From positions 62,001 through 126,000 of the forward strand of contig MCGO01000092.1 of the NCBI GenBank assembly GCA_002104985.1: a stretch of DNA of 64,000 nucleotides, read 5' to 3'. This document shows, piece after piece, positions 1 through 49,498 of the stretch. The position numbers and the translations under genes are program-made. How positions within the stretch are numbered: position 1 is the stretch's first letter; each line of letters starts with the position of its first letter. This DNA comes from Rhizoclosmatium globosum (taxonomy: Eukaryota > Chytridiomycota > Chytridiomycetes > Chytridiales > Chytriomycetaceae). A model generated the notes under the pieces. The model saw only the letters and a list, made by a program, of their open reading frames with translations. It ran no database searches and was not told where the DNA came from.

Positions 1-3000
1 AGCCTGCTGTCGGAGGCAACTTTTACGCCAAGGCTCTTTCCCAGTTTCTGGATGCTCTTGTTGTTTCATTTGTCATCAAACCCGTGAAAGAAATTGATGT
101 TGAAATACCTGTTGGAGTTGGAGTTGGACTTGGAGTTGGAGGTGGATTTGGAGTTCAAATGGAAGAGGGAGTGGATGAAGAAGATGAAGCCCCAGAGGAT
201 AACTCCCAGCTAACTCTTGCTCAACTAAGAACCTCGTTCAAGACCTCCATTCTTCAATATATCCAGCCTGTTCAGTGGGGCTTGTGTCTGGAAACTGGAA
301 CACGACTAGTATCTTCAAAGGCATATGTCAACATCACACATTTATGCCGAGATGATCTTGTAAACTTGTTCACTGATATATTTAAGCTGAGCAAGAGCAA
401 GTATTTGTTGTTTGGGAATGAAGGATACTTGGAAAACAAGGTCGGTGAACAGCTCAATAACACACATGTTGTGCAGGGTGCGTTCAAAGGCGCTATTGCC
501 AGATACAAGACATGGGCTACAACTGGCCTGAAATTTGGTAATCTTCTTTCTTTTTCTCTGACATCATCCTTTCACTTTCCTAATCCAACACATTTAACCA
601 GGAAAATCATTCCATGACCAGTTCAGCCACTCAAATCGTCGATATCTCTCAGTTGATGGTCACACCATATTTCCCAGACTGCCTGACTCGCAAGTTCGTG
701 GGATGCAGTCTGCTGTCTTTGATCAAAACAAACAAACAGCTGCACACACTGAGGGCTATTTCCTTGATTCTTGTGATGAACCCACCAGAGGCATTCCATG
801 GCCGCCTAACTTCCCTTCTGTCAATTTGCATTACTTGAACTTGATGCGTCTGGCTTTAGAAAAAGGAGGTCCACTCTGTCAGAGACTTGTTGTTCATCCA
901 CTGGGATTCAAGATATTTGCGAGTGCAAGGAATGTCATCCACCTTTGTCTGACAAAGAACTCAACAATTAACTTCCCAACGTCCAAGAATGAATTTGTGA
1001 CGTATAGGCCAGGTGCAATCAGCATTACGTATGACAGAGAAACTGGAGTCTTCAAATCAATGCTTCCTCTTCAAACTCACCACATGAACACCCGTGAATT
1101 AGGACTTATTACGAAACAATATTCATACAACAACGCCCCTCGACGTTATCCAACAACAACACCCGCAGTCAACCGCGATTCCATTGATGTCAGCTTTAAT
1201 GAAGTCCAAGAGTTATTGTCAGATTCTTTGAAAGAGATGGCTGAGACTCGAAAATACTATGCTGCAAATCCATCAAACTTGAAGGCACGCGAGGAATATC
1301 GGCATGCATCGCACTTGGTTCGGTACATTCGAAATCGAATTCAGAATGAATGTTCTGCAAAGCACCGCCGCAAACTGGAAGATGCCATGACTGTTTATGC
1401 TGGTCAACACAACTTTGGTTCGTTTCGCTACGACTCTGTCAAATTGGGTGCAGTACATGCTGAAGATACTGAACTATTCAAATCTCGGATGGGATCCTTC
1501 CACAGTCCTGATGTTTGGATCACAAATCCATCAGAAGCTGTTCAGTCTGCGTTTCGGAATGCGTTTGGAACATCTCGTTTATTGTTGAGCAGTGATCCAG
1601 GTGGAAGAACAGTGGAAACGCAGATGGCGAGTACAGGCCATGTTGTTCAGATTGGAGTCGGATTTGAAGCAGTGATTTGTCGTCTTCAGAAACGCATCAG
1701 CACTCTTCAATCGTTTCGAGACAGAGCTATTGATCAACTTGATACTGTGATAGTGCTACGGAGTGTTGTCGCTGCTGCTGAATTGGATCTTGTTAAATAC
1801 GCTTCTGGTGATCAAGTTGTAGCAAAAGAAACATTGCGACTGGAAAATCTTGTACTTTCAGCAGAACAGGAGTTGGAGGCTAGGTTGAAGGAGCTTCGCG
1901 CGTCAGCAAGAATGGTTCGTAAACCAACTCCTGGTCCCAATGACATGAATGTGGTGGACGAGGAAAATGATGTTCTGGATGAAGCAGGGAGAGTGGATAA
2001 GGAGTTGAAAAAGATGCGAAATGAATTCAATGTCACCTTTGATGGAGGTGGTGATGGTGGAGACGACACAAATCTTTTGTCACGCCTACTCAAGAACGCG
2101 CAAGAGGACTTGAACAAGTACGCTCGACGAATTCGTCGATCTGCCGCAGAATGGAATTCTAGTGCAGACTCATACGCTACATCTGACTTCAACTCCAAAA
2201 CCACAAACAAGAAAATGACTTCTGGGAAGGATGGTATTCCAAGTGAGTGTCATTGATCACTTAATTTTGAATCTAACCTCCTCTATCTTAGAATGGGTCA
2301 AGACTGTCCTCTCATATGCGGCCCATGCTTCCATCAGGAAAAAAACTACAGTAATGGCGTACAAAAAGTCGGAAAATGACGGCGCGTTCTTTATTCCTGG
2401 TGGACCTGCCTGGACTATACCCACAATGAAGAAAGTCATGGCCAAAGAATTTGATCCTGCGTTTCCTCTTGTTGGCAGAGTTGGAAAGATCAAGGCTGTA
2501 GTCATAGTGACTGAGGTAAGAGTCTCATGCATTTTACTTTATTTAACCTGTTCACTGTTCACTAGATTGGGTCAACAATCATGTGCTTTTGCGGCCGCAT
2601 CTCTCGAATCGGGAAGGCAAAGACGTTCAAGTGTTCGAATCCACGGTGCAGTGGTCGTGCAATATGTTCACGTGATAGTCTCACCTTCCGTCTCCCACGC
2701 GACATCAAAAGCGGCTTATTCATTGAGAATCTAACGTGGGCGATTGCATTGATGCGGGTTCATCACCACATTCGAGGTGGTGGGACAGGAGGTGGTGAAA
2801 ACAGTGATGGAAACGGCGATCCCGGTGGTGGAGGACCTGGAGGTGGGAGTGGTGGAGGGAGAGGTGGAGGGAGTGGACGAAGCGGTGGAAGTGAAGGAAA
2901 TGGAGGACCAAGTGGAAGTGACTCCAAACCTCCTCCTTCAAAAAAACAGCGTATTGTTAAAGGGCGTTTAGAGTATGTTGTGGTGGAGGAGGTGGAAGGG

Positions 3001-3147
3001 AGATTGGACGAAGGTGGGATTGGTTCCACTTCGAGGCAGGCTGAGGATGACTACGGAGGATCTCAGCGAGTGGACAACAAATCTACACACTTTCCTATCT
3101 TGCAATTGGCCTCCCGTGGAGCTGCTGGACACGGTAGCGACGTATAG
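1..3147 (+). CDS. Fanzor-type (TnpB-like) RuvC nuclease, left copy, 5'-partial
   Basis: The exons I read are 1-537, 602-2242, 2292-2515 and 2566-3147, all joined in frame. The three RuvC signatures of TnpB/Fanzor proteins are visible. RuvC-I is SSDPGGRTVET near 1585-1620. RuvC-II is VVIVTE, ending exactly at the exon 3/4 junction. It is followed by a zinc ribbon, CFCG...FKC..PRC. RuvC-III is RDIKSGLFIEN near 2698-2730, with a second candidate aspartate in CSRD. A Gly/Ser-rich tail of about 140 residues follows. In this family the RuvC domain cuts DNA guided by an RNA encoded at the element's 3' end; that activity is inferred here. The reading frame has no internal stop, so the copy could be functional. 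The N-terminus is outside the window. Confidence 0.75.
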
Positions 3148-3185
3148 CTGATGTAAGTGTTTTTATTGACCTAGTACCACCACTG
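1..3185 (+). mobile_element. Fanzor element, left copy (5' end outside window)
   Basis: This stretch is nearly identical to the reverse complement of 45240-48396. Base 1 corresponds to 48396, so the 5' end of this copy lies before the window. Similarity stops sharply after the shared string ending ...ACCACCACTG at 3185; beyond it the two flanks are unrelated. Only one gene is carried, a Fanzor-type nuclease, and only 38 nt separate its stop codon from the element's end. Small differences (an amino-acid change every few dozen residues, a 5-nt change in intron 1, a 33-nt indel in a Gly-rich stretch) point to a recent duplication or transposition. I see no terminal inverted repeat at this end and cannot test for a target duplication. 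Confidence 0.8.
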
Positions 3186-3350
3186 GACCATTTCGCTCGC
3201 CATGCTTTGCGGAGGTCCTGCTCCGTTGCTTTTCGATACACGTTTTTCTTGCGATGCCAAAAGACACAATTTGTGTTCTCCAAATTGCCTCTGATGAAAC
3301 TCTATTATTGTATTCATATTATTTTTTCGCGAGTCCGAGTCCGCGATTCA

Positions 3351-5743
3351 TCAACATGATTTCCAAAAATCCTTGGGAATCTTGTCTTTCAGTTTATCAA
3401 CGTTCTTGTTGATGAACGTCAAAGAGAGGCCCGTCTAACGCCTAGTTAGGAGACCACGCTAATAGAAAAGGCCAGAACAGGAACTCACCCCCATATGCCA
3501 ATCAATGTGGCAGTGAAAGAGCCATGCTCCAGGGTTGTCGAACTTGACCAACAAGTTGACGAATCCTTGAAAACAGCTTCCCTCGATTCCACCAGAACAC
3601 GCCGGAACCTGAATACTATCGCGACGTGGATACGTAGTCAGCGTCGACTCCTGCCGCCGCTTCTTATGCAACATATTTCCCGCACTCGTTACATAAAACG
3701 CATGCTAAGAAAAAAAACCATTCCCCAATAAAGAATATTAGCAATCCACACTCATACAAATCGCCAAAAAAAAGTGAAAAAACAAACTCACCCCATGTAA
3801 ATGGAAAGTATGATCCACATTATCATCATTCACAAGCAAGATATTCACCCACTCCCCATCCTCCACCACAACAGAATTCACCCGCCCTTGACTCCCATCC
3901 ACACCCGTCCCCAACAGATCCTTCAACGTCGGCGTAGACGGCAACTTGTACTGCTTCTCAACAAACGACTGCTCCTTGCTGTCAAGTGTAAACGTCGCAA
4001 TCGTCTCGCTTGCGTTTGCAGGGTTTCCAGCAACGAGGAAGTGGAGGATCATGTCCCGGACTTTGGTGGGTTTCGTGGCGGGTGTCATGCCGTTTAGTTC
4101 GCCGAGCGTGTATACGTCGAGAACGGATTTTGGGGTTGGGGCGGGTGAAATGGTTGATGTTGTTGCTGTTGTGGGTGCGCCGTTGTATCGGAGGATTGCG
4201 TTGGCTTCGAGGTTGAGGCCGTTTGTGATTGTTGTTCCGGCGGGGGTGTACATGTCTTCCATGATTGCGCGGATCCAGTAGTTTTGAATAGTGGCTTTTG
4301 CTTCAATTAGGAATGAGTCTAAGCGGGTATTAATAAATGAAGTTTAGAATTAGATCGTATACAGTTGTCTTGAGGAAACTCACATCGTTGGCCGGGAGTG
4401 ATATCAAAACTATCCACGACGGTTGGGTTCGTGTAATATCCATCTGCCTCAACAATCGTCATTTCATGGCCATCAATCGAAACTCTGTATCCCGCCTGAG
4501 CACTTGTATTAATGACACGGAATCGATCTGCCAACCTTCATGTCAATATGAAAACAAAAATAGATTCTCCCTCCAACTTACATTTCTTGCCCTTTTCAAC
4601 AGTAAAAACCGTCAAGGGATTATCAACTACGCAAAACGATTCCTTGGCAGCGTCGCAATTGACTCTACCAAGACCATTAATCAAACCGGAAGAAGGCGCA
4701 GGATCTTTTGCATCTAATTTTGTTTGATTAATACATATGCCTCACATAACTCTTCTTTCTTGTGAGAACTCAACTGTCATAGTGTGCAAATATGATTTTC
4801 GCATCGACATGAAAATGATCCGCTAGTGTCATGATAAATTCTTGATCGTATTGTGAGCGGAAAGGTTCTTTTGGGTCACGGATGATGAACGGGCCTCGTA
4901 TTCCGTTTGCTGTTGAATGTATATGATAAAGATGAATAAGTTCAGGTTTTGGAAGATAGCTGTCTGGTTGGAACATACTCTCTTGGAAATGCGAGTGAGC
5001 ATGGTACCAGTAGGTTCCTGTTTGGTCTCCGACGTTGAATTCATACGTGAAGGAGCCTGGTTGATAGCAAGGGAAGGGAGAAAGTGTCAACAGGGTCGAA
5101 AGTCATCCATAAGGCGTCAAATGGTCACCTCCAGGGGGTATCGGACATTGAGTCACCTTGTATGAGGAGGTTTAGTTTGCAACTCAAAGGGGTTGGTAGA
5201 GGTACTCACCATTCCAGCTCCATCCATCCACGGCACGCCACGCATATCCAGTCCTAAAGTGTTGTATTGAATCAGATCATATGTTCAAGGTACGATCGAT
5301 GCCATTTCATTGAAGATTGAAAGATGCAGTTGTGCACGCACTGACACAGACGAACAGATCAAGCATTCTTCTACACCCCATGTCATCTGATCCCTTCCAG
5401 TACGAGTTCTTTCGATCATATTGAAGAATCAAGGGTGTTCCGACATCTTGCAAAACGAGGCGCATGGCTTTTCCCCCAACTGCAACCCCATCAACACTTG
5501 GATAACAAGCACAAACTAACCATGCCAATGCATACTTGTTTCCTCATTCAAGTTATTGTTAACGATTATAGAGACATGATCGCCGGTATCGACCGTGATT
5601 GTGTAGTCATATTGACCATTGACGGTCATCATTTGAACAGGTACACCGTCTGGAGAGACCGTAGCATAGGACAGATCCATAGTAAACTGCTTTGTAGCAG
5701 CAGCCACAAGAGATATTAGGAAGCTAAAGACGATGGGGATCAT
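3351..5743 (-). CDS. Laccase-type multicopper oxidase, secreted
   Basis: Ten exons join in frame: 5521-5743, 5210-5253, 5129-5156, 4979-5056, 4775-4909, 4582-4713, 4384-4527, 3792-4318, 3489-3704 and 3351-3434. They give about 536 aa, a normal laccase length. The N-terminus [18 protein letters not shown] is a signal peptide. All four copper-binding motifs are present: HWHG (split by intron 1), [18 protein letters not shown] (split by an intron) and HCHIDWHMG. Together they supply the ligands for the type 1, 2 and 3 copper sites, so the enzyme should oxidise phenolic or metal substrates with reduction of O2 to water. The substrate cannot be told from sequence. The gene shares an 81-bp intergenic space with the divergent PLAC8 gene. 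The stop lies only 165 bp from the end of the left Fanzor element. Confidence 0.88.
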
Positions 5744-5824
5744 GTGACGATGGTTGGAAAGTGTTGAATCTGGACCGACAAAAAAGCGTTGGTAGGGAGG
5801 CATATCATCACAACAGGAGCAATC
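5744..5824. promoter_or_regulatory. Short divergent promoter region, oxidase/PLAC8
   Basis: Only 81 bp separate the start codon of the multicopper oxidase (minus) from the first ATG of the PLAC8 gene (plus). Both genes must therefore draw their core promoters and 5' UTRs from this space or from each other's 5' ends. I see no clear TATA box. Confidence 0.4.
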
Positions 5825-7216
5825 ATGTGGGGCGATGCAGAGGACACGCTGCCCCGGGCCCTTGAGATCCAAACCAAGGTAGGCCTAGGAACATCCCTAG
5901 GAGTCCTAGGAGTCCTAGCCGAGGACGACAAGGAAGAGCAGGAGCTGGATGAGCTGGACCCGGAGGCACCACCACCACCAACTTCAACAACCACCAACAT
6001 TGACCCTACTTCACCAACCACTCTGTCGCCTCTTTCTCCAGTTGAAATGATGCTTGGCTCTGCATCAGACATTGTTCCGTTGAGAGGCGATGGCGATGGC
6101 AGCAACGGAACAGATGCCGACCCTCTCTTGAACCAACTGAACTACCAATCGAACCATCCGCATCCGCCAAAGCGCCGTGGTTCAACGGTCTCATCTACTT
6201 TTGTCGACCTGGATCCATCGCTTCCAGCCTCAGATTCGAAGGAACGAGACAAGGACAAGGGCAAGCGCGTATCACACAGACTGTCAACTGCCTCAATCGA
6301 CTTTACCTCCTTCAGGCGGGGTGTGACTGCAAAGTCGTCCCGTGTCTCAATGTCTATTCAGGGAATCTCGCAGAATGTCCAGGAAACTGTCCAGGAAGCC
6401 TTGAAGAGCTCGTCAAGTTGGGTGCATCCACTCAGAAACTGGTCCAGAGTCGATTCAAATGCATTCGCTTTCGTTCCTGCTTCTCAAGAATCAGTGAATG
6501 CTATTCAGCCATATGCCACGCCGCAAATGTCGTTTGCAGTATCCGAATCTAAACAATCAAGTGATTCATCGCTGACAAATGAATCAGTTGTGATGGCTCC
6601 AGCCACTCCAGCTGCCGCTATCAGACGTGGCGCATCCAAATCAATATTAAAGGCGAATTCATTTTCTGCAATTCACCCACAGCAGCAGCAGCAGCAGCAG
6701 CTACAAATGGATCACCAGCTGTTTACTAAACAACCTCAACAACCACAAATCGAAAAACCAAAACCTGCACCCAACCCTTCCATCATTCCCTGTCTCTCTG
6801 CAACATGCTGCCCCTGCATAATCTATTCTCAAAACCGTCAACTCTTTTTACGTTCAGGCGGTTCAATCGAAAACGATCCAATCTCCTCTTTCTGTGGTGG
6901 CAGCAGCACATCCACTTCTTCTGCTTCTGAATCTTCGAAAATCGCTCAAGCTGCCTGTTGCTTTGTTCTATCCATCCCTATCTGCATGTACTGGTGGTCC
7001 CTCCGTTCCCTCCGTCGTGCAATTCGTACCCGCTATGCACTCTCATCTGATGACGCCGGTGGGGAATCTAATGGAGAGTGTGGGGAATGGATGCTGAGCT
7101 TGTGTTGCTGTTGTATTCCGTGTGCTCTTGTTCAGAGCGGCAAGAGATTTTGCATTGGGAACATGTTGTTAAGGATACAAGGGATACGCGAGATCGAAAC
7201 AGAATTCGAAGAATAA
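5825..7216 (+). CDS. PLAC8-domain (Cys-rich) protein
   Basis: This is an intronless frame of 463 codons; I chose the first ATG (MWGDAEDTLPRAL). Residues 1-310 are low complexity and Ser/Thr/Pro-rich with a short poly-Gln run. The C-terminal 150 residues carry the PLAC8 pattern: ATCCPCIIY, then a hydrophobic stretch CCFVLSIPICMYWW, then RAIRTRYAL and CCCCIPCALVQ. PLAC8 proteins are membrane-associated and are linked in plants and fungi to cell size and metal (Cd, Zn) tolerance; that role is not demonstrated here. Compared with compact PLAC8 proteins, the long N-terminal extension and the Ser-rich insertion between the two Cys clusters are unusual. Confidence 0.75.
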   Translation: MWGDAEDTLPRALEIQTKVGLGTSLGVLGVLAEDDKEEQELDELDPEAPPPPTSTTTNIDPTSPTTLSPLSPVEMMLGSASDIVPLRGDGDGSNGTDADPLLNQLNYQSNHPHPPKRRGSTVSSTFVDLDPSLPASDSKERDKDKGKRVSHRLSTASIDFTSFRRGVTAKSSRVSMSIQGISQNVQETVQEALKSSSSWVHPLRNWSRVDSNAFAFVPASQESVNAIQPYATPQMSFAVSESKQSSDSSLTNESVVMAPATPAAAIRRGASKSILKANSFSAIHPQQQQQQQLQMDHQLFTKQPQQPQIEKPKPAPNPSIIPCLSATCCPCIIYSQNRQLFLRSGGSIENDPISSFCGGSSTSTSSASESSKIAQAACCFVLSIPICMYWWSLRSLRRAIRTRYALSSDDAGGESNGECGEWMLSLCCCCIPCALVQSGKRFCIGNMLLRIQGIREIETEFEE

Positions 7217-7685
7217 GTGGGATTATGTGATGATGATGATGTCGATTATATTTTTATTTGTCACTTTCTTTTGGGGGGGTTGTGCGGTTTGGGCGGAGCT
7301 TGATGATGTTGACAACGCCCCCTTTTCTTTTCAATTCTTCTGATTCTATACAAAACAGGTACTTGGACTGTACCTTCTTATCTTTTTATCCAAATCTCTC
7401 TATGGAAACTGACAATGTTGAGCAACAAATAAATGAAATAAAATAGCTAAAAGATGGAATTTCTGAATCTGATTTGAATTTTAAGAGGAGGCAAGTGCGT
7501 TCTGCTGTATGCTCATTAGCATTATTAGCATCATTTAATATTACGAATCACACTCAGCATTAACAACCCCGTCATCCCGCCATAAAACACTATAAAACAT
7601 TTGAGATACTGGTATAGTTCAATTTCTTTCCAACAAAGCAAAGCAACCCTTTACCCAAGCAACCAACCGAAAGCGTCACCGCAAC
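7217..7685. other. Intergenic, nothing recognised
   Basis: This 469-bp AT-rich spacer holds the 3' flank of the PLAC8 gene and the 5' flank of zinc-finger gene A. I see no convincing reading frame, RNA gene or repeat. Confidence 0.5.
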
Positions 7686-8356
7686 ATGGCCGATGATGCC
7701 CAGTTTCAATACATTACCTTCTTGCAGAAGCAGATAACGCAGCTCAAGGAAGACAAGGTGCGTGTTTTTCCATCGACTGGTAATTAATTGAAGGACAGGC
7801 CGCGCAATCGGAATACGATGCGCTGGTTGCAGAGAATGCAATTCTAAAGCAAACTGCTGCAGACAATACCGCTCTGAAGAAAAGAATCAAGAAGTTAAAA
7901 CAAACTTTGATGGACACAGAAGAAAAAGTGAAGCAATTAACATTGAAAGTCGAGAGCCTAGTGAAGGGACCCTCGAAAGGATCACAGTCCGCATCTTCTT
8001 TGACACCTTTGAATCGGAAGCAAAGTAGGCCTGCTGTACCAAAATTGAAGTGCCCTTTTTGCGAATTTCTTCCGTTCAGCCAAATGCATTTCCACGAATA
8101 CCACCACGTCTTTTACGAAGGCGTCGCTTTTTCTGGCGTTGATGGGATCATTAGAAAGGGTGAGGTCATCTGTATTTCTTCGCATTTTATGTGAATTATT
8201 CAGTTATTTAATATAGACATAATGCGAAAATCTGAGAACCTGGAAGCCGGCGTGCTAAATTGCCCTTGCAACGAATATCAGAGTGCAAAATATCAACATT
8301 TTCGGCACCATGCCAGAACATGCTCAGGATGTCCCAAAGATACTACTGAAACTTGA
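7686..8356 (+). CDS. Zinc-finger family gene A (coiled coil + one paired-finger module)
   Basis: Three exons, 7686-7757, 7799-8159 and 8217-8356, give 190 aa. The N-terminal ~85 residues (MADDAQFQYITFLQKQ..., ALVAENAILKQ...) form a strong coiled coil. They are followed by a paired finger, LKCPFCEFLPFSQMHFHEYHH and then CPCNEYQ...HFRHHARTC. This is the smallest member of a family whose other members (genes B, C, D, F) lie on the opposite strand. Intron 2 falls between the two fingers, as in genes D and F. I cannot assign a known family. A DNA- or protein-binding nuclear role is a guess from the C2H2/C2HC-like finger spacing. Alternatively it could be a truncated copy of a larger member. Confidence 0.7.
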
Positions 8357-8402
8357 AGAAGCAGACCCATTTCATCAGAACCAGAGCCATTAAGGACTGA
8401 CA

Positions 8403-8439
8403 CTGCTGGACACGGTAGGGACGTATAGCTGATGTAAGT
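8403..8439 (+). repeat. 37-bp stray copy of the Fanzor element 3' end
   Basis: This 37-bp string matches 3122-3158 of the left Fanzor element, and its inverted counterpart in the right element, with a single mismatch (a G for a C). In the elements it spans the last codons, the stop codon and the first bases after it. Here it lies 46 bp past the stop of gene A, with no nuclease gene attached. Flanking bases on either side do not match the element. It may be a relic of an old insertion or a conserved end or RNA motif. Confidence 0.7.
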
Positions 8440-8724
8440 TTACTGTGACAATTATGATCTCTGACTTGACCTCCTTTTTTTCAACAGTGATTAATCTTAC
8501 TTATGTTTGTTTTCGTTGTAATCTTGTAAATAATAAATAAGGATATCTTAAAGGGAGTCATATTCGATAAGTATCAAATCCCATTTTAATTGATCAACGA
8601 GCAATAAATAACACCAAGCAATATTGTCTGCTTTCAAAGTCCTCGAGTTCATACTTTCATACTCCAACATCACCTTCTTCCTCTTCCTTCTCCTCATCAT
8701 CATCCTCCTCCTCTCTCTTCCTCT

Positions 8725-10789: not shown

Positions 10790-11032
10790 TCTTCTTGGTT
10801 TAATTGGTTTGTTTTTTCGGACTCCAAAAAGTAACTTCTCCTCTCCTCATTCACATAAACAAAACATATTGTACAATCAAAACTTTAATCATTTTTCCTT
10901 CCTTTTCCTTCCTTCTTCAAATAAAACACACAAAAACGTTAAAAACAAACAAACAAACAAAACACTCAACAAAACGTTCACCACAAACTTAATAACACAC
11001 CTCAACTATTTCCCCCCCTCTCCCTCTGCTGT

Positions 11033-17852: not shown

Positions 17853-20796
17853 TCACTTGTCACGACAGTCCTTTGGAAGCTTAAAACTGTCAACACCTCC
17901 TGAAACAGCCCCAAACCCAAGTCCTCGCTTCGCAAATCCTTTCCACAACAAACACTTGTTCTTTTCTCCAGTCAAGAATTCATCTGCCTTCAAAATCGCA
18001 TCACGGGCATCCACAAACGATGGGTTACATGGCTGGATCTTCATTCCATCAACCACAAGCTGAAGCATCAACACGTTTCCTCCCAATGGGAATGGATCCT
18101 CAGCCCGCGCTTCAGGTGGACCTGAAAAGACAATAGGGCTGCGAGTGCGCTGGCGACCAGTACGGAATTCAGTGTACATATTGGATTGAGCAGCAACATC
18201 GAGTGGTCGTGTGGCAACAGTGTCAAACCAATCTGGGTTCCATCCATGCGCTTCCACAATGTTCCAGAACACTTCGTACAAGATTTCAGCCCACACTTCT
18301 CCCTTGGCATGAACTCCCCAGTATCCTGGCTTGTTCACAAAAGAGTACACGGATGGGTTGGTCACGTTGGATGTAGAGTACTTGTACTTTCGGATTCCAG
18401 AACCACCGTTGGCATATTCACCCATACCAAAGTCAGCCTTGCGAGTCGTTTCAGGTGTCATACGAGTGATGGTGGCGAAAAAGTCTCCCCATCCTTCACC
18501 CATACCACCAGCTTCGCCAAATCCAAGGCATCCGCTGTTGGCAGGTCCACCAGTGAGACGGGTGGAGATACCATGTGCGTACTCGTGCATAATGATACCA
18601 CCTTCAAAGTCTCCGTCTCTCCATGGGTCAGTGACATCCCACACGTACATTCTCATGCGTCCGTGCGTTCCATCGGGAGGAGTAGCAAAGTTGGCATTGT
18701 TGTGTCCACTGCCGTCTTGGGCGTTTGCAATGACAGAGTCACCACCGAGACCGCGCTCGCCACGGTTGTTGTCCTGGAAGTTTCCAGCGGCTTCATTGAA
18801 ACCATACACGTAGAAGAGGTCTGTTCACATTGCGTAACATACGGTTAGCTTTAAGGAAAATCAAGCACACAAATGAAGCATACCATGAATAGCATTGTTC
18901 CAGTAAAAGAGGTTAACAACAGCTGCATCCACATAAGTTTCAGGGTCCTGCTTGAGATCAGCAGGGAAGTCAAAATATAACTTGGACGTTCCATCTGGAC
19001 GCTCTTTGTTTTCCCAATCATTGTATCCACCATCTGCACGGGAAATAAGTAATATTAGTCACTGCATAGCATACGATATCTACTCACCCAAATTCTCTTG
19101 AGCGTAGACATTGTTTCCAATCGTCACAGTGTGGTCTCCGTTTGGACAAGCTTGCTTGCCACCACTGCACCAGTGCCAACCATTTGGAGAAGCAATCTCG
19201 GAGAGAGGACCCGAAACAATGTTTCTATCTCCCTCCAATGGGTCATTGGTTCCAAGAGGAAACACATTGTAAACACTCTTGATATCACGTGGAGCCGATG
19301 AGCTGGAAGAAACCGGTACAATTACATCATGGACCTTCTTCTTGTCGTGCTGGACTTCATGCTGAGATGCTTTGTTCGCAGAGGAAGCCTTGTGGCCACC
19401 GTGGTGCTCGGACTTTTTACCAACATGCACACCCTTGCGGAACTTAGAGTGTTGCTTCTTGCCGTGGCGAGTGGGGTGTTGAGCCTTCTTTTTGTCGCCA
19501 TGGCGATGGTAAACCCGCTCGACAATGCGTTCATAGACAACCTCGGTGGTTGAGTCGTCCAAGTCGCTGAAGTAGTTTTCACTGACCCAGTCAATGAGGC
19601 CAAGAGTCTTTTTCCCGTCCTTCTTGGTAGTACCTATTATTAAAATCAAATTAGATGAATGTAGACAATGAAGGGATGTGAAAGATGTTCAGAAATGTAA
19701 GGTGAATCGCCAGAGAGTCACCAGGCTTCTGTACCACAAGGTATTCGTGAAAATTAAGAAGGAAAATACTCACGGGCATCAACATGGGCATGGTAATAGT
19801 GGTTTCCGAAATCAACTTCAAAGTCCCAGACAGGAACAAGCTGCTTGTCATCATCCAAAAAGTACTTTAGAGTCGCTGGCACGGCAATATCTTGCACGTC
19901 TCTGGTAGACTTTGCAAAGGAAGACTGCGAGATTGTCGGGAGCGTGATTTCATAGTCTGGAGCCAGACGGAAGGGGCGGACACCCGGCTTTGCCTTTGAA
20001 TGCTTTGAAAACGAGTCACGACGCGCAGCACCAATACGCTGAGGGTGAGGCATGACAGTCGCCCCTGCTTGCGATGCTGGGTGGATACCAAGCTCGGCAA
20101 AGAAAAAGTCGAGGGCTTCCAATGGCGAGTGAATGTCCTCTGAGCCCGGAACAAGAGCATCTTCACGCGCCACAAGAGGCTTCTGTTTCTTGTTTTTCGA
20201 GTGAGCTGGCTTGTTTGTGGTGGTTTCAGCAGAGGCAAACGACGACGAAAACGAGACGATGCGGTTTGTCTTGATATCCACATTGGCATTTGCAACAGCA
20301 TTAGCCACCTCTTTTCCGTTGAAAGTTTGGACGAGGTGGACGTGTGCCAAGCCCAAGTGGGGTGACTCGACGATATTTGTGACCGTTGCAGAGAGACCCT
20401 ATTTGTTGTTTGATAGAGTGTGTTAGCGAACAACAAAGACTAGACGCCTGCTTTAGAGACACTGGGAAACACTGGGAAACACTGGGAAACACTGGGAAAC
20501 ACTGGGAAACACTGGGAAACACTGGGAAACACTGGGAAACAAGCAAACAAGGAAGGTACCTTTGATGCGACATACGCAAGGACAGTGTCTTCTGGAGACG
20601 CGCGGCCACTTTTCACAGCAAGAGACGAGGCCCACTGCGAAAGAGCACTTGCGTCATCGGAGACGGGCCGCACCGATGCTGGCCCAAATGGGTGGCGGAG
20701 GGAGGCTGACGATGCGTTCGCTTCAGTGGCGGATGTGCTGCCGGAGAGCCCAAGTACTCCAGCACTAAATGCAACAAGAATTAAGCGGAGTTGCAT
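17853..20796 (-). CDS. Fungalysin (M36) secreted zinc metalloprotease
   Basis: Five exons (20560-20796, 19774-20398, 19088-19633, 18884-19033, 17853-18820) give 841 aa, slightly longer than typical fungalysins. A signal peptide (MQLRLILVAFSAGVLGLSG) precedes the FTP-type propeptide. The catalytic zinc motif is HEYAH in GGIIMHEYAHGISTRL, with the downstream glutamate in EAGGMGEGWGDF. The flanking NNAIHD...YGFNEAAGNFQ is also typical of M36. These enzymes digest extracellular protein and are expanded in chytrids. An unusual His/Lys-rich insertion (near residues 320-375, with KKKAQHPTRHGKK) sits between propeptide and catalytic domain. Intron 1 carries an eight-unit minisatellite. The gene interrupts the zinc-finger cluster in the same orientation. 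Confidence 0.92.
20461..20540. repeat. 10-bp minisatellite, 8 copies
   Basis: Eight perfect tandem copies of ACTGGGAAAC lie inside intron 1 of the M36 gene. On the gene strand each unit reads GTTTCCCAGT and so contains a pyrimidine-rich CAG, which resembles a 3' splice site. Copy number is likely to vary between strains. Confidence 0.95.
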
Positions 20797-27625: not shown

Positions 27626-27716
<91 letters not shown>

Positions 27717-34647: not shown

Positions 34648-34687
34648 AAGAGGGATTTCAATCTTATAAGAGGGATTTCAATCTTAT
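34648..34687. repeat. 20-bp tandem duplication
   Basis: Two perfect copies of a 20-bp unit beginning AAGAGGGATTTCAATC (34648-34667 and 34668-34687) lie about 125 bp upstream of the LRR gene's start codon. Confidence 0.9.
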
Positions 34688-34812
34688 TTATACGTTTGGA
34701 ATGTGAGGGAAAAGTAATTGTTTATGAGTTTGATGGGACATTATACTTTGAGGGACGGGTCTGGGGTTTGTTTTTGAGAATTGTCAGATTTCGTCAAAAA
34801 GACAAAGAAAGT

Positions 34813-36811: not shown

Positions 36812-36936
36812 TTCTCAATCCATATTTACGTTCTTGATTTTCTTCCTTCTTTATTTCTCATCCTTCAGTTCCCCCCCTTAGAGTTTCTTTCATAGAATTT
36901 ATTCCTTCTTTTTTTTTCCTTCAAAAAATCCTAAAA

Positions 36937-38078: not shown

Positions 38079-38120
38079 ATGTTACTTTTTGAGTTTATCC
38101 ATTAATACAAAAAAAACCAA

Positions 38121-39055
38121 ATGACTTCCATTGCAGCTGCTCACTTCCCGACGCATCCACCCGCATCCCAACCACAACAACAAGCGAGTTTACTTCTTCC
38201 TGATTCCGTACTGCGTCAGGCTGTGATGCTACCTGCCGGAGAAGACTTGAATGAATGGATTGCCGCCAATTTAACAGACTTTTACAACCAAGTGAACCTA
38301 ATTTATGGGTGAGTTGAGTGATTACTATAAAGATATCTGTGCGGCGTTGGATTTGGATGTACAGAGAGCGTGTATGAAATGGTTGTTTGTTGTTTGTACT
38401 CGAAGGATCAAAGGGATGGGGAATACTCTATACATCAGAAACACGAATCGAATGAATTTTGGATGTTCGAGCTGTGAGAAAGCAATGGGATGGGAGAGAT
38501 TGTGGGATCTATCAAAGATGCATCCCCCCAATCATAACACCTGACAAACTCATTTATTGATACCCCCCCTTGAATTACTATAGATCCGTGACACAATTCT
38601 GTACACCCGAATCATGCCCAACAATGTCAGCAGGTCCTAAATTCGATTACCTGTGGTCCGACACTGCATTATTCAAAAAGCCAATCCGATTGTCAGCCCC
38701 CGAATACATTGACACTCTCCTCTCGTCAGTGCAAACAGCACTGGACGACGACACACTGTTTCCAACAAAGCCAAGTATGCCTTTCCCGAAGCATTTCATG
38801 GTGACTGTAAAAACCATCTTTAAGCGGTTGTTTCGGGTGTATGCGCACATGTGGCATGCGCATTTCGCGACAGTGGTTGTGTTGGGGGAGGAGGCACATT
38901 TCTGGACTAGTTTTCGGCACTTTGTGTTGTTTGTGAAGGAGTTTGGATTGGTTGAGAGGAAGGAGTTTGCGCCGATGGATTCCGTTATTGATGTGAGTTG
39001 TTTGTGTTTCCAATCATCAATTGCTAACCCCTCTCTCTTCAACCAGTTTCTCTGA
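38121..39055 (+). CDS. MOB1: MOB1-type kinase activator
   Basis: Exons 38121-38308, 38584-38992 and 39047-39055 give 201 aa. The sequence follows MOB1 closely: EDLNEWIAANLTDFYNQVNLIYG, FCTPESCPTMSAGPKFDYLW and KRLFRVYAHMWHAHF, with the Cys and His zinc ligands in the expected places, then FVKEFGLVERKEFAPM. MOB1 binds and activates NDR/LATS kinases in the mitotic exit and Hippo-like networks. The short last exon replaces the usual C-terminal helix end (VIDFL). If the last intron, which is a multiple of 3, is retained, the tail becomes longer but stays in frame. Intron 1 is 275 nt. The non-conserved N-terminus is Gln-rich. Confidence 0.9.
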
Positions 39056-39119
39056 ATTCTCTGATTAATGCATTTTCCAATAAATTTTTATTTATTTATT
39101 TTTCATACGAAAGAAAGAG

Positions 39120-41746: not shown

Positions 41747-41790
41747 AATACACAGAAAGTACTTTTACTGTTAAGTTTTGGTAGCAGAAA

Positions 41791-44700
41791 ATGTCCTCCA
41801 ATAGCAATGTTGGTGTCCCCACGATTGAGAAGCCCCCACCCAGCGATCCAACCACAACAAACCAAACAAACCAAACAAACCAAACAAACCAAACAAACCA
41901 AGCACAAGTACTAAGCGCCGCTGCCGAATTCGAAGCGGGGACCCGGGCGGCAAAGCACAGCAAGGCCGCACTGCGACGGCTTGCAACACGCACGAATGCT
42001 CTCTTATTGGCCATTTCAGAATCAGGACATTCGGCTTCGAATTGGTCGTTTGTCTTTGAAGAACTTGCTTTGTTTCTGACTGAGGCGAATGCGGTGGTGC
42101 TGTCAATCAACTCAGAGAATGTATGTTGAGTTGTTGATTGTTGGTTGCATCACCCTCTATCTAACAAGCTAACATTACTATTACCTTTCAGTTCATGCAC
42201 TCATTCGTTAATCGTGATGTTGCTGCTGCCAAACTACTTGATCTCAATAACCATCTCTCGTCCATCGTCCTTGATGTTCAACTCGCCCTTCAAATCGACA
42301 ACAACTCTTGGGCTCAAGAAGATGCTGAAGATCGGCAAATTGATAAAGAAGAGCTGGACATGACGCTCCAGCATTTGGTGGACAATGATTACAAAATCCT
42401 GAATGCGCTGGAACTCAAACAAGTAGAATACCTGGAAGCAATCGACGCTCTTCAAAAACACATTTCAGAGCATTTAGATGCTGCGCTGGAACGGAACTTG
42501 GAACGCATCTTTTGTGATAAGGCTCTTGCCAATTTAAGGCGTGCCACAGCTGCTACCCGCATTGCTGGTACCGGTATCCCAAAACATCAGCAAAATGAGG
42601 AATGGCTCGTAACTTCATGGGAATTTGAAATCGGTCCATTGATCTCTCGTGGTGGTTTTGGTGAAGTTTTGAAAGCAACTTGGCTCGGCCATTCATCAGT
42701 CGCAGTGAAACGCCTTCATATCCGTCTCGAAACTGCAAAACTCCGCGACGATTTTTATCGAGAGGTTAAAACCTGGTTTCCTTTGCGGCATCCCAATATC
42801 TTACCTCTACTGGGTGCATGTGCGAACGCCGAAAGGCCTTTCATGGTCTCGCCTTTCATGGAACGTGGCCATGCGCTGCAATATCTGGAATGGATCGGTG
42901 ACGGGCATGGATCCATCGAACATGCCGGAATTAAACTTTTGTACGAGGTCTCCCTTGGCATACAATACCTCCACGCACGTGGCGTTACCCATGGAGACCT
43001 GAAAGCAGTCAACATTCTCGTGGATGAGTACGGCAAAGCCTGTGTTGCGGATTTCGGATTCGCGCAACTTAAGCGATACACAACCACAAAAACAACGGCG
43101 GGTTCAAGTACTCCTTTTGGTGGTACACTTCGTTGGATGTCTCCAGAACGTCTACAAGGCGCGAAACTGGCTCCACCTGTTGATACTTATGCCTTCGCTA
43201 TGACTTGTTATGAAATTCTGACAGAAGGCGATGTACCGTTCACTGAGACTCCCGATGCGTTGATTTATCAACATGTTGTGAACTCAAATATTAGGCCCGA
43301 AATGCCAGATGCTGCCAATTTCGTATCTTCACGAGAGAGAATGTGGACATTAATGAGCCAATGCTGGCAACCTGATCCGATGGCTCGTCCTCCGTTTTCG
43401 GCAACTAGTGTCACGTTACGTTCTATTCTACATGGACTTGGTGATGCAACTGAAAGTGTTGGATCTGTTGTTGACAAATCCGTTGGAAAACAGCCAGCTA
43501 CGAGGCCAGTTGCGGAGACCATGTCACCACCTCCTTCTGATATTGCTAGTACACTCAATGGATTAACGTTGAGTGGAAATGTCTTGGATGCAGCTGTAGC
43601 CACTGACCAGCCTGCGATTCCGATGCCACCACCCAAACCCAGTGGAACTCCACCGTTGATTGACCCCTTCAGAACCTCTGCATCCGCAATAATTCAATCG
43701 CCTCAACCACCTCAACCTCCACAACCCCCTCTACCACCCCAACCTCCCATACCATTCCCTGGCCCAGATCCTCACGTACAACGCCAATTCCAGCAACAGC
43801 TCATGCAAATGCAACAAGCACAACAAGCATTACACGCACAACAACGTCAAGTCCTCCAACAGTCATTCGTTGCAGGAAAACCAACACCATATCTTCCCCT
43901 CCCACCGCCATTCCCACCTCTACATCCAACCTTTCCTGGACCATACCCTCCGCCTCAACCTTCTGCCCCCTCTTCAATTTCAACCGCTCCTCCTTCACAA
44001 ATCCCTGCCACGATACCATCCATCCCTCGAAACACAGATTTTGGAGCAGGTGACGGAAAAAACGTGATTGGCTTCCCCTTTCAAAACCTGCACATCCTAA
44101 GCCAAGGTCCTGGCTTTTCTGAAATAACTGTGAAGCGGGGATCTCCGGGTGATCCGAACGCATACCTCCATGTCCAAAGGAGCGGTGGCGGCGGTGGTGG
44201 TGGTGCGGAACAGGTTGTTCGTGTGCACAGTATCGACGTTGATTCCGTTGAAATTAATATCGCGTATCCTGTTGGGATTGTGTATCGAAAGCGGAGTAGT
44301 GCTGGGGGGCTTGTGTCGCGGTTGTTGAGTCGAGGTGGTGGTTCAGAGGAGAGTTTGGAGGGACGTAAAGGCGGTGGGAGTGGCGAAGTTGAAACGAAGC
44401 TTGATCTTGTGCTTCCACGCGATTTGGAAACGTTTGTTGTGAATGGGGAGAATATTACGTTGTTCTATGAGGGTACTCGAGTTTTGGATCGATGTGAGAC
44501 TTTTTTTCCCTTTTACGTGAACTAACGCCTTTCCTAGTTGACTATAAGGTCAAGAAAGGTTCGCTGTTTGGGAACATCGAAGGGTATCTAAAGTGCACAG
44601 CCGAGACTGATGTCGGTGCGTTGGATGTTCGATTGAGGCCAGGACTTCCCGAAAGTGAAAACGTATTGCGTACATCGCGTGGATCAGTAAATGCGTTCAT

Positions 44701-44932
44701 TGCAGGGTATCGGGGGCTTGTCAAGGCCAATTGCTACCTTGGCCAGATCTATGTGACGGGGCTAGACCCTGGAAACGGAAAAACCGAAGACAGGACAATA
44801 TTTGTCATTGGAAATGGAGAAGGGGAAGGAACTGTTGCGGTTGGCGACGGGAAGGGGAAGGATGTGGGAGGCCGATTCACCGGATCAGCCACGTTTGGAT
44901 CGTTAAATCTATCATTCCAAGGCAAACGATAA
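41791..44932 (+). CDS. TKL-type protein kinase with beta-rich C-terminal domain
   Basis: Exons 41791-42120, 42192-44493 and 44538-44932 give 1008 aa. The N-terminal ~240 residues are helical and resemble the helical bundles that precede fungal TKL kinases; exon 1 contains an NQT repeat. The kinase domain (about 260-520) has the Gly loop ISRGGFGEVLKATWLG, the lysine in VAVKRL, the catalytic HGDLKAVNILV, DFGFAQ and GGTLRWMSPERL, so it should be active. A Pro/Gln-rich linker follows. The last ~250 residues are beta-rich with repeated Gly-Ser-Val/Phe turns (NIEGYLKCTAETD; GRFTGSATFGSLNLSF), resembling adhesin-like or DUF4097-type folds. Substrate and pathway are unknown. Confidence 0.85.
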
Positions 44933-45009
44933 GTTCATTTAAACACAAAGCATTTTTATAAAGCATTTTTATACGTTTTGGTTGAATCTGTCATTTCAAG
45001 GCAAACGAT
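44906..45009. repeat. Duplicated 3' end of kinase gene
   Basis: The 25 bp at 44906-44930, which code the last residues of the kinase gene, recur at 44985-45009 with two mismatches, just before the UBFD1 start. An AAAGCATTTTTAT direct repeat lies between them. This looks like a small local duplication. Confidence 0.8.
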
Positions 45010-45030
45010 TTTCTAAAAAATAAAAAGTTC

Positions 45031-48000
45031 ATGCCGAAAGAGCCACGAAAGATGGATCCGATTGCATTCAAAGTCACACACAAGAACACCACCCTCGAGA
45101 TGAGTATGGGAGCAGACGAGACTGTTCTTGAGCTGAAGAAGCGCATTGAGGAAAAAACTGGGATTGACCCCAATCTGCAAAAGGTATCCTTCTCAATCTC
45201 ATGGTCCATTATCCTTGCATAGTATGGTGTTGCCTGTGTCAGTGGTGGTACTAGGTCAATAAAAACACTTACATCAGCTATACGTCGCTACCGTGTCCAG
45301 CAGCTCCACGGGAGGCCAATTGCAAGATAGGAAAGTGTGTGGATTTGTTGTCCACTCGCTCAGATCCTCCGTAGTCATCCTCAGCCTGCCTCGAAGTGGA
45401 ACCAATCCCACCTTTGTCCAATCTCCCTTCCACCTCCTCCACCACAACATACTCCAAACGCCCTTTAATAATACGCTGTTTTTTTGAAGGAGGAGGTTTG
45501 GTGTTGCCTCCACTTGGTCGACCACCACTCCCTCCTCCACCACTCCCACCTCCAGGTCCTCCACCACCGGGATCGCCGTTTCCATCACTGTTTTCACCAC
45601 CTCCTGTCCCACCACCTCGAATGTGGTGATGAACCCGCATCAATGCAATTGCCCACGTTAGATTCTCAATGAATAAGCCGCTTTTGATGTCGCGTGGGAG
45701 ACGAAAGGTGAGACTATCACGTGAACATATTGCACGACCACTGCACCGTGGGTTGGAGCATTTGAACGTCTTTGCCTTTCCAATTCGAGAGATGCGGCCG
45801 CAGAAGCACATGATTGTTGACCCAATCTAGTGAACAGTGAACAGGTTAAATAAAGTAAATTGGATGAGACTCTTACCTCAGTCACTATGACTACAGCCTT
45901 GATCTTTCCAACTCTGCCAACAAGAGGAAACGCAGGATCAAATTCTTTGGCCATGACTTTCTTCATTTTGGATATATTCCAGGCAGGTCCACCAGGATTA
46001 AAGAATGCGCCGTCATTTTCCGACTTTTTGTACGCCATTACTGTGGTTTGTTTCCTGATGGAAGCATGGGCCGCATATGAGAGGACAGTCTTGACCCATT
46101 CTAAGACAGAGGTGGTTAGATTCAAAATTCAGTGATCAATCACACCCACTTGGAATACCATCCTTCCCAGAAGTCACTTTCTTGTTTGTGGTTTTGGAGT
46201 TGAAGTCAGATGTAGCGTATGAGTCTGCACTAGAATTCCATTCCGCGGCAGATCGACGAACTCGTTGAGCGTACTTGTTCAAGTCCTCTTGCGCGTTCTT
46301 GAGAAGGCGTGAGAAGTTGTTGGCGTCGTCTCCACCACCACCACCTCCATCAAAGGTGACATTGAATTCATTTCGCATCTTTTTCAACTCCTTATCCACT
46401 CTCCCCACTTCATCCAGAACATCATTTTCCTTGTCCACCAGATTCATGTCATCTGGGCCAGGAGTTGGTTTACGAACCATTCTTGCTGACGCGCGAAGCT
46501 CCTTCAACCTAGCCTCCAACTCCTGCTCTGCTGAAAGTACAAGATTTTCCAGTCGCAATGTTTCTTTTGCCACAACTTGATCACCAGAAGCGTATTTAAC
46601 AAGATCCAATTCAGCAGCGGCAACACGACTCCGTAGCACTATCACAGTGTCAATTTGATCAATGGCCCTGTCTCGAAACGATTGAAGAGTGCTAATTCGC
46701 TTCTGAAGACGACAAATCACTGCTTCAAATCCGACTCCAATCTGAACAACATGGCCTGTACTCGCCATCTGCGTTTCCACTGTTCTTCCACCTGGATCAC
46801 TGCTCAACAATAAACGAGATGTTCCAAACGCATTCCGAAACGCAGACTGAACAGCTTCTGATGGATTTGTGATCCAAACATCAGGACTGTGGAAGGATCC
46901 CATCCGAGATTTGAATAGTTCCGTATCTTCAGCATGAACTGCGCCCAATTTGACACAGTCGTAGCGAAACGAACCAAAGTTGTGTTGACGAGCATAAACA
47001 GTCATGGCATCTTCCAGTTTGCGACGATGCTTTGCAGAACATTCATTCTGAATTCGATTTCGGAGGTACCGAACCAAGTGTGATGCATGCCGATATTCCT
47101 CGCGTGCCTTCAAGTTTGATGGATTTGCAGCATAGTATTTTCGAGTCTCAGCCATCTCTTTCAAAGAATCTGACAATAACTCTTGGACTTCATTAAAGCT
47201 GACATCAATGGAATCGCGGTTGACTGCGGGTGTTGTTGTTGGATACCGTCGAGGGGCATTGTTGTATGAATAATGTTTTGTAATCTGTCCTAATTCATGG
47301 GTGTTCATGTGGTGAGTTTGAAGCGGCAGCATTGATTTGAAGATTCCAGTTTCCCTGTCATACGTAATACTGATTGCACCTGGCCTATACGTCACGAATT
47401 CATTCTTGGAAGTCGGGAAGTTAATTGTTGAGTTCTTTGTCAGACAAAGGTGGATGACATTCCTTGCACTCGCAAATATCTTGAATCCTAGTGGATGCAC
47501 AACAAGTCTCTGACAGAGTGGACCTCCTTTTTCTAAAGCCAGACGCATCAAGTTCAAGTAATGCAAATTGACAGAAGGGAAGTTAGGCGGCCATGGAATG
47601 TCTCTGGTGGGTTCATCACAAGAATCAAGGAAATAGCCTTCAATGTGTGCAGCTGTTTGTTTGTTTTGATCAAAGACAGCAGACTGCATCCCACGAACTT
47701 GCGAGTCAGGCAGTCTAGGAAATATGGTGTGACCATCAACTGAGAGATATCGACGATTTGAGTGGCTGAACTGGTCATGGAATGATTTTCCTGGTTAAAT
47801 GTGTTGGATTAGGAAAGCGCAATGAAAGACATGATGTCAAAGAAAGGAAAGAAGATTACCAAATTTCAGGCCAGTTGTAGTCCATGTCTTGTATCTCGCA
47901 ATAGCGCCTTTGAACGCACCCTGCACAACACCTGTGTTATTGAGCTGTTCACCGACCTTGTTTTCCAAGTATCCTTCATTCCCAAACAACAAATACTTGC

Positions 48001-49498
48001 TCTTGCTCAGCTTAAATATATCAGTGAACAAGTTTACAAGATCATCTCGGCATAAATGTGTGATGTTGACATATGCCTTTGAAGATACTAATCGTGTTCC
48101 AGTTTCCAGACACAAGCCCCACTGAACAGGCTGGATATATTGAAGAATGGAGGTCTTGAACAAGGTTCTTAGTTGAGCAAGAGTTAGCTGGGAGTTGTCC
48201 TCTGGGGCTTTGTCTTCTTCATCCACTCCCTCTTCCATTTGAACTCCAACTCCACCTCCAACTCCAAGTCCAACTCCAACTCCAACAGGTATTTCAACAT
48301 CAATTTCTTTCACGGGTTTGATGACAAATGAAACAACAAGAGCATCCAGAAACTGGGAAAGAGCCTTAGAGTAAAAGTTGCCTCCGACAGCAGGCTGAAC
48401 TCCAGTGATGATTGCCGGATGCCTGTAACGCTCAATATTATTCCGCGACTGTATAGTTTCATCGATTTCCTCGTCCAGTTGGTAGGCAGGTAAATTCATA
48501 ACATACTGATAGATGGAAAGTTCATGTGGACTCAAAGAATTCAGAGTCACTTGATGATCAGCACCAACCAGAAACCCATCAACTATACTGAACGGGCCAG
48601 TTTCAATAATCACATCCATGGCTCTAGTAGTACCAAGTTCTGCATCAGTCAATGGGACTTTGGAATCAGGGAACCGATTAAACAAGAGATCTGAGAAACT
48701 TTGTGCAGCATCATGAAGATTTTGGCACTTCTGACCTTCACTTCCCCCTTTTAAAGCTTCTATACAAGGGAATGCTCAGTGACGAGAAGACAATTGGCGA
48801 ATCCAAGATTGTAGCTGGCGCCAAAGTAATGCTGATGGCTTCTTCTGCAAAGGTGCGTGTTCATGAGTAGCGTTCTACTTCCACACTATCAAGTTTCATC
48901 TGAACATACCCACAACCCTTGAAACCCAAATTAGGATATCATGACTGTAGTTGCACCCCCACCCGTGGATGCTGCCACCTCAGGATCAGGGGCTGCGGCT
49001 GAGAAAGTCTCCATCTTCACTGAGACTGAACACGCCAAAATCATCAAACGTGGAAAGCCCGACTTTGAGATTGAGAAGGGATTGACTACAGGTGCGTTTT
49101 GGTTTTAAACCGACGGATTGAAGGTGATGTTTGACTTTGTTCTAACAGGTCGAGTAAGCTTACCAAGTCTCGGAGTCACGGTTCTGAATCAACGCGGAAT
49201 GAAGACACGTTTGTCGTTTAGGAATGAGACGGCTGAGTTGCAGATTGCTACAGCTGAACGCACGCAAAAAGTGCCATTTGGCTCTGTATCTCGAATTCGA
49301 TCTGAGGATATGCCGTTAGAGCATGGGGGAGAAGGATATGCTGCCATTGGAATTCAAGTGGGCCCTACAGAGAAGAGTATTGTATGGTTCTACTGGGTGC
49401 CGAGACAATATGTTGAGAATATTAAAGACACTGTGTTGGGAACTTTTCCTGGTGCTCAATATCTACTGGATTCCATTTTGAACTTTAAATCGTCATAA
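45031..49498 (+). CDS. UBFD1: Ubiquitin-domain protein UBFD1, interrupted in intron 1 by a Fanzor element
   Basis: Exons 45031-45183, 48757-48852, 48935-49091 and 49149-49498 join perfectly in frame to 251 aa. The N-terminal ubiquitin-like fold (MDPIAFKVTHKNTTLEMSMG... IDPNLQK | LLYKGMLSDEKTIGE...GAKVMLMAS) is split by intron 1. The C-terminal domain has the UBFD1 signatures KIIKRGKPDFEIEKGL, LNQRGMKTRLSFR, ERTQKVPFGSVSRI and GPTEKSIVWFYWVPRQYVENIKDTVLG. UBFD1 proteins are poorly known ubiquitin-like proteins linked to NF-kB signalling in animals. Intron 1 is 3573 nt because it holds an entire antisense Fanzor gene. Without it the intron would be around 60-100 nt, like its neighbours. Splice sites GTATCC and AAAG are intact, so the gene may still be expressed. 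Confidence 0.88.
45240..48750 (-). mobile_element. Fanzor element, right copy, inside UBFD1 intron 1
   Basis: This is a near-identical inverted copy of 1-3185. The 3' boundary is sharp at 45240, where similarity to the left copy stops. The 5' boundary is not defined, because the left copy is cut by the window. It must lie between the first codons near 48619 and the UBFD1 acceptor at 48756. No target duplication or terminal inverted repeat is evident from this copy alone. The element is antisense to its host gene. Confidence 0.8.
45278..48619 (-). CDS. Fanzor-type (TnpB-like) RuvC nuclease, right copy, complete
   Basis: Exons 47860-48619, 46150-47790, 45877-46100 and 45278-45826 give 1057 aa from the first ATG (MDVIIETGPFSIVDGF). 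The frame is open further upstream to about 48780 but has no ATG there, so a missing N-terminus or a non-ATG start is possible. RuvC-I is SSDPGGRTVETQM (near 585). RuvC-II is VVIVTE (Glu 875), then the ribbon CFCG...CSNPRC. RuvC-III is LPRDIKSGLFIENL (near 921). The middle has helical segments and acidic stretches, and the tail is Gly-rich. Compared with the left copy, the Gly-rich stretch is 11 residues shorter. Intron 2 has GTGGGT instead of GTGAGT. RNA-guided DNA cleavage is known for the family and inferred here. Confidence 0.78.

Follow-up and report, generated by a model that had tools for sequence, protein, structure and literature searches.

The window analysed here is the whole 64,000-nucleotide stretch of the Rhizoclosmatium globosum assembly (56.9 Mb, 420 contigs), its positions 1-64,000 corresponding to C413:62001-126000. 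It holds two stretches of about 3 kb in inverted orientation, which an earlier note took for two intact, single-gene Fanzor elements. We find that they are parts of a mobile element of about 13 kb whose predicted protein carries the published Fanzor motif, and which may spread by 3'-anchored copying resembling that of long interspersed nuclear elements (LINEs). The features, in window positions, are the following.

1..3158, + strand: copy 1, the 3' quarter of a full-length element, continuing left of the window (window start = C413:62001) to C413:~52320
1..537, + strand: end of exon 16 of the element gene model
602..2242, + strand: exon 17, with DPGGRT (Asp codon 1594-1596), from gene model and motif
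2292..2515, + strand: exon 18, with VTE at its end (Glu codon 2513-2515), from the gene model
2566..3147, + strand: exon 19, with a C-x-C...C-x4-C cluster, RD (Asp codon 2701-2703), a Gly-rich linker and the stop codon at 3145-3147, from model, motif and frame conservation
2935..3158, + strand: 3' block conserved at the nucleotide level (fourfold sites), with a possible terminal hairpin
3159..3185, + strand: 27-nt co-copied 3' tail of copy 1, the last 26 nt of which occur in the genome at three element ends only
8403..8439, + strand: 37-nt 5'-truncated remnant of the same element, absent from the earlier note
45031..45183, + strand: first host exon flanking copy 2, from a ubiquitin-like gene
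45224..45266, - strand: co-copied 3' tail of copy 2, identical at 41 of 43 nt (by eye) to that of the truncated copy at C63:78278 (L039)
45267..48725, - strand: copy 2, 5'-truncated, antisense in an intron of the host ubiquitin-like gene and starting within exon 16
48757..48852, + strand: next host exon, 3' limit approximate

The near-identity and inverted orientation of the two stretches were borne out by alignment: 1-3185 aligns with the reverse of 45240-48396 at 95.3% identity over 3,194 columns (105 mismatches, 18 gap openings), the differences being substitutions and small indels as had been described, and DPGGRT, VTE, the Cys cluster and RD were found in both. Contrary to what had been supposed, neither stretch is an intact element. 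The window edge cuts through copy 1, which runs on for ~9.7 kb, to C413:~52320; copy 2 is preceded by unrelated DNA, starts in exon 16 at window 48725 and is without roughly the first 2,600 of the 3,736 modelled codons. The frames described as uninterrupted contain three GT-AG introns per stretch (538-601, 2243-2291 and 2516-2565 in copy 1), and what looked like a ~3-kb single gene in each unit comprises only the final exons of a gene modelled at 3,736 codons. It is true that the DNA common to both stretches stops 38 nt beyond the stop codon, but the family itself ends 11 nt past it, and the remaining 27 nt are a tail present at three copies only. Nor was recency borne out for the pair, whose synonymous divergence (dS) is 0.093; among the 16 pairs computed, four that are not a single duplicated locus have a dS of 0.018-0.033. 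When the host exon at 45031-45183 is joined across copy 2 to the one beginning at 48757, the product matches PF00240 at 1.4e-16. In a genome search, window 1-3185 gave 48 matches, of which 20 are long copies at 76-100% identity.

Most other long copies extend far left of the window when aligned to the copy 1 locus. Between C413:~52320 and ~65160, copy 1 has sequence in common with the copy at C413:128572-~141,700, apart from one stretch that has diverged strongly, and the full element is ~12.8-13.1 kb long; two copies on contig C13 extend ~115 nt farther 5' and bring the longest measurable element, by arithmetic, to ~13.1 kb. Directly left of copy 1, C413:48104-52091 is a tandemly duplicated stretch whose copies are 75-96% identical and partly open in frame. 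Simple dynamic programming on copy 1, with codon usage and GT-AG introns, modelled a single gene of 19 exons and 3,736 codons running out of the window; the last intron was reset manually, as conservation by codon position revealed coding sequence in that place. All 20 aligned copies, those of a ~73%-identical subfamily among them, have the eight introns downstream of residue ~1,770 wherever these are covered; two odd splice dinucleotides and some boundary errors remain.

The predicted product is one giant multi-intron protein with an upstream ubiquitin domain, two Cys/His clusters, an uncharacterised middle and a C-terminal TnpB/Fanzor-type motif. The ubiquitin domain ends in GG and matches PF00240 at 1.1e-9; the Cys/His clusters were seen by eye (zf-Di19 at 0.0027, below its cut-off). 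A 2,639-residue Podochytrium protein (P0005) matches piecewise from model residue ~1,038 to the end (E 1e-54, 21% identity) and is 42% identical across the last ~180 residues of the nuclease segment. The Pfam scan recognised no ubiquitin domain in it, and the placement of this domain in the same protein is therefore a prediction: upstream of residue ~1,038 the single-gene model is without Podochytrium support, and the ubiquitin part might belong to another gene. The ubiquitin domain of copy B gave no Pfam match. In the ubiquitin-domain stretch at L029:6121-7070, two copies otherwise ~93-97% identical are far more diverged, as if the stretch had been swapped or were fast-evolving. Between copies, the ratio of nonsynonymous to synonymous change (dN/dS) was 0.18-0.24 in 11 of 16 pairs; the five youngest pairs gave 0.28-0.43, and the comparisons covered as many as 2,225 codons. 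For the nuclease part alone, one young pair reached 0.76 on very few changes. Since dN/dS is ~0.2, the protein is under selection. Homologue searches, each restricted in protein length and word count, returned four Rhizoclosmatium proteins and the one from Podochytrium, and viral and prokaryote contigs held no relatives of the nuclease segment in scans with two short peptide patterns each. In Rhizoclosmatium hyalinum, the annotated protein P0004 has the end of the element's nuclease region joined to a glycosyl hydrolase (PF00150, PF18564); it could stem from a truncated insertion that became fused to a host gene, or the annotation could be wrong.

The assignment of this protein to Fanzor held in part. 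In the sections of Bao and Jurka (2013, PMC3627910) used here, the Fanzor/TnpB motif reads D-X(125,275)-[TS][TS]-x-x-C4-X(5,50)-RD. The Podochytrium protein falls within the published range (X=234, RD 16 residues past the fourth Cys), and the Rhizoclosmatium motif lies just over it (X=292), with a Cys spacing of C-x-C; with the range widened to 295, the motif occurred in none of 1,000 shuffles of each protein. What is supported is a mobile element with the motif in its protein; membership of the Fanzor family is not. PF07282 (OrfB zinc ribbon) had no match in the genome, the control search having matched in 6 of 14 genomes, and the nuclease part had no Pfam, PHROG, NCBIfam or PDB match. Against 61 TnpB open reading frames (ORFs) from 80 loci, hhalign gave probabilities of 0.2-2.5%. 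The zinc-ribbon piece of the protein aligned in register with TnpB and outscored all 60 column shuffles (19.8 vs best 19.5), the probability staying at or below 2.5%; shuffles scored as high in 2 of 60 cases for the whole RuvC piece and in 25 of 60 for the C-terminal piece. AlphaFold2 on a 9-row alignment returned a model too poor for use (mean predicted local distance difference test score, pLDDT, 33.6). VTE may or may not hold the catalytic Glu, which in TnpB sits farther from the zinc ribbon. Because everything beyond the motif is negative or weak, we describe the element as carrying the Fanzor motif and do not file it as a Fanzor.

The 3' end of the element was found at 34 places in the genome: with the last 306 nt as query, 34 of the 37 matches reach it, down to matches of 37-39 nt; about a dozen span only 37-136 nt, and a few of these adjoin other pieces of a rearranged copy. 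The common 3' terminus, 11 nt past the stop codon, reads GATGTAAGT and was seen at 28 of the 35 ends displayed overall. In a first set it stood at 17 of 18 ends (the exception, L019, has lost its 3' end, and two of the 20 loci were without match), and in a second set at 11 of 17 further ends, some with one or two changes. The 5' ends, in turn, are ragged, from full length down to 37 nt, and even the near-full-length ones spread over ~190 nt. A pattern count gave 30 matches but was set aside as a count, the reversed control giving 5.

Past the common end, copy 1, copy 2 and L039 share 26-27 nt of flank, and copy 2 and L039 agree at 41 of 43 nt by eye; another group of six loci shares 19 nt. Exact matches to these tails lie beside element ends in three of three cases for the 26-nt tail and in six of six for the 19-nt group, which had three further two-mismatch matches elsewhere, vs one in the control. 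Since exact tails occur at element ends only, the flank was copied together with the element. The shared 3' flanks could also be read as guide-targeted insertion, which is disfavoured because the exact tails were found beside element copies only. Target site duplications (TSDs) were found in three of 17 copies: 61 bp, 122 nt past the element end (L039), ~25 bp (L045) and ~17 bp (L046). Introns are retained in the copies. On sequence comparison, therefore, the copies show 3'-anchored, 5'-truncating copying with a co-copied flank of up to about 43 nt, introns kept and TSDs of ~17-61 bp in a few. A host gene family spread by segmental duplication was rejected for most copies because the displayed flanks differ and the 3' end is sharp; four pairs look duplicated or allelic (L016/L017, L018/L031, L032/L033, L036/L037). 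A number of element loci are present in duplicate, flanks included (C13 vs C253, C21 and C38; C20 vs C168), which suggests allelic or duplicated contigs. For the two copies in the window, a genome search for empty sites with one flank each gave only the locus itself.

The 3' end is also conserved beyond what the protein requires. At fourfold sites, 10 of 45 comparisons were changed in 2935-2994 and none of 88 in 2995-3147 (the last ~50 codons), where one copy was compared with five copies of the ~73%-identical subfamily, so that the 88 comparisons represent about 18 sites. Gene-wide, very roughly half of such comparisons between subfamilies are changed (read from the table); two other short upstream intervals were likewise without change (0/32, 0/8), and 4 of 11 rows have a 1-nt deletion within 2995-3147. 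Identity to the distant subfamily is still 91-93% over the final 116 nt. Taken with the fourfold conservation, this indicates that the constraint acts on nucleotides. The 3' block, which may end in a 60-nt hairpin (z score -2.3), would be a recognition signal for the copying enzyme and possibly also an omegaRNA-like transcript.

With regard to insertion sites, no hexamer was more enriched in the 60 nt of flank next to the 3' end than TTTATT, the reverse of a poly(A) signal, which was initially found in 12 of 25 loci. Without same-tail copies it was found in 10 of 23, vs a 2.5% background and 11 of 652 local windows (P 7.6e-11, ~3e-7 after 4,096 hexamers); five of the 28 readable-end loci had been dropped as duplicates or same-tail copies, and loci with deviating ends lie outside the count. 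This enrichment suggests insertion just past the poly(A) signals of convergent genes. The evidence is mixed, however: TTTATT falls within the possible tail in L009 and L012, it stands at the priming end in only one (L046) of the three copies with TSDs, and a tolerance of insertions between convergent genes could also yield the enrichment.

We compared the element with the known classes of mobile elements. Like a LINE, it has a fixed 3' end and 5' truncation, but no reverse transcriptase (RT) was recognised in seven scanned pieces of the model or in P0005, and an autonomous LINE was rejected on that ground; none of the 132 RVT_1 matches in the genome (Penelope and LINE pooled) lies at an element place, coordinates being compared by eye. 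The one resident LINE family examined, of which three copies were read, ends in poly(A), whereas the element does not. No Penelope RT or GIY-YIG was recognised in the element, and genome-wide GIY-YIG gave only two partial matches, both over the cut-off and outside the element. Terminal inverted repeats (TIRs) were sought in one full-length copy (L052/L014 ends), where the local score was 17, vs a null mean of 15.8 and maximum of 24; a TIR transposon was rejected, no TIR being present in the copy tested. The scanned pieces contained no Pfam domain of a Helitron Rep/helicase. Helitrons end 3' in CTRR, and the terminus here, given above, does not. Two observations stand apart from these tests. 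The resident LINE family lies beside CCCTAA telomere-like arrays in two of the three copies read (L144 and L145, C35:~10270 and ~19320), suggesting telomere-directed insertion, and window 20459-20541 is a perfect 10-bp tandem array (ACACTGGGAA, 8.3 copies).

The reading we favour, which we hold with about even confidence, is that of a ~13-kb R. globosum element that encodes a Fanzor-motif protein and is copied in a 3'-anchored, LINE-like manner, a polymerase being supplied in trans. The giant protein, or its RuvC-like domain, would cut the target, and the free 3' end would prime synthesis on the unspliced element transcript, or on element DNA. Synthesis would start at or just past the conserved 3' block, acting as recognition signal and possibly as omegaRNA-like transcript, and would run toward the 5' end until it aborts. 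Because no polymerase was recognised in the element, it would have to come from elsewhere, either from a resident LINE- or Penelope-type RT or from host repair. An unspliced or antisense template would account for the retained introns, a point discussed for Penelope in the passages of PMC3846280 used here, and so would DNA copying. Several observations weigh against this reading. The link to Fanzor is the motif alone, profile and fold tests having given nothing, and element scans disclosed no source of the polymerase. In the second set, 6 of 17 ends deviate in the last nucleotides, and 14 of 17 copies have no TSD (17 of 19 without and two with one in a narrower search). RNA structure in the 3' block is weak, with z scores of +0.3 to -3.3 depending on length and two-sided change in 1 of 33 pairs; with so little variation in the block, there is next to no covariation. 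Finally, six contigs with 5.06% of the bases carry 25 of the 34 3' ends, the contigs having been picked afterwards and duplicated loci included; such clustering is not usual when copying is RNA-mediated and could reflect duplication at the DNA level.

Alternatively, the element might be a passenger, its transcript copied in trans by a resident LINE or Penelope RT while the giant protein has another job, in a host gene family or at a different mobility step. We regard this as a possibility worth keeping, if a rather doubtful one. It is in line with the RVT_1 matches in the genome and the want of a recognised RT in the element, and PMC3846280, in the same passages, describes an intron-bearing host gene copied by Penelope in rotifers with its introns preserved, as well as 5'-truncated Penelope copies sometimes without TSDs. 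The dN/dS of ~0.2 among copies, however, suggests that the protein matters for propagation, and the poly(A) ends of the LINE family examined, which the element is without, also weigh against it, as does the finding of only two partial GIY-YIG matches in the genome.

The clustering bears rather on copying at the DNA level only, in which breaks would be repaired by short one-sided copying from a nearby element, through homing or template switching. This would also explain the kept introns and the mostly absent TSDs; exact tails, however, occur at element copies only, so that no pre-existing homology to the flank is seen, and the long TSDs of three copies better fit staggered nicking with primed synthesis. 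We consider it unlikely. Less likely still is an ordinary Fanzor1 element of a DNA transposon with decayed ends, its truncations being later deletions. The published motif is present, and the parts of PMC3627910 used here report Fanzor1 in many DNA transposons and fuzzy 5' ends in MCi-2, but no TIR rose above shuffled background in the one copy tested, and the sharp common 3' end, the 5' losses at many points always on the same side and the co-copied 3' tails all speak against decay.

How eukaryotic Fanzor nucleases aid the spread of their elements is treated as an open question in the discussion of PMC10432273. It is tempting, though we think it improbable as a whole, to see here a new class of eukaryotic mobile element, in which a giant ubiquitin-bearing Fanzor-type nuclease protein would serve target-primed copying of an intron-containing element from its 3' block by a trans polymerase, with the 3' block and co-copied flank as omegaRNA-like primer or template and insertion favouring sites past the poly(A) signals of convergent host genes. 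In any case the family is a readable record: dozens of copies share an end, the co-copied tails show which copies are related, and the protein is under selection. Should the motif mark a real Fanzor nuclease, RNA-guided-type nucleases would be linked to LINE-like primed copying; if it does not, this is still a large element failing a defining feature of each class tested. Among the matches listed from open-access literature on Fanzor, R. globosum and Podochytrium transposons, no title or abstract start describes it.

LINEs and other non-long-terminal-repeat retrotransposons leave 3'-anchored copies with 5' truncation, a co-copied 3' flank and occasional TSDs. The element has the first three and, in three of 17 copies, TSDs; it differs in having no recognised RT, no poly(A) tail and introns retained. 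With Penelope-like elements, as described in the passages of PMC3846280 used here, it shares intron retention, 5' truncation and variable or absent TSDs, whereas RT and GIY-YIG were not recognised in it. With Fanzor1/TnpB, as far as the sections used of PMC3627910 and Saito et al. 2023 (PMC10432273) go, it has in common the D-X-[TS][TS]-x-x-C4-X-RD motif at the C-terminus, residence in a mobile element of a chytrid and a conserved 3' end beside the stop codon; unlike them, it has no TIR found, ragged 5' ends and no detectable sequence or profile similarity. It also resembles the MCi-2 family of Mucor circinelloides (PMC3627910), with a ~6-kb 3' region common to copies, no recognisable TIRs and fuzzy or variable 5' regions; in the MCi-2 subfamilies, however, TSDs are 11-12 bp and of ATAATT type, and the 5' regions vary through replacement. 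The Fanzor SPu-1 is ~2.1 kb long, with one ORF of 633 residues and 33-bp TIRs (PMC3627910), as against ~13 kb, 19 predicted exons and 3,736 modelled residues here. The R. globosum element far exceeds the compact Fanzor elements of PMC3627910 and PMC10432273 in size, and the structure of its copies is different.

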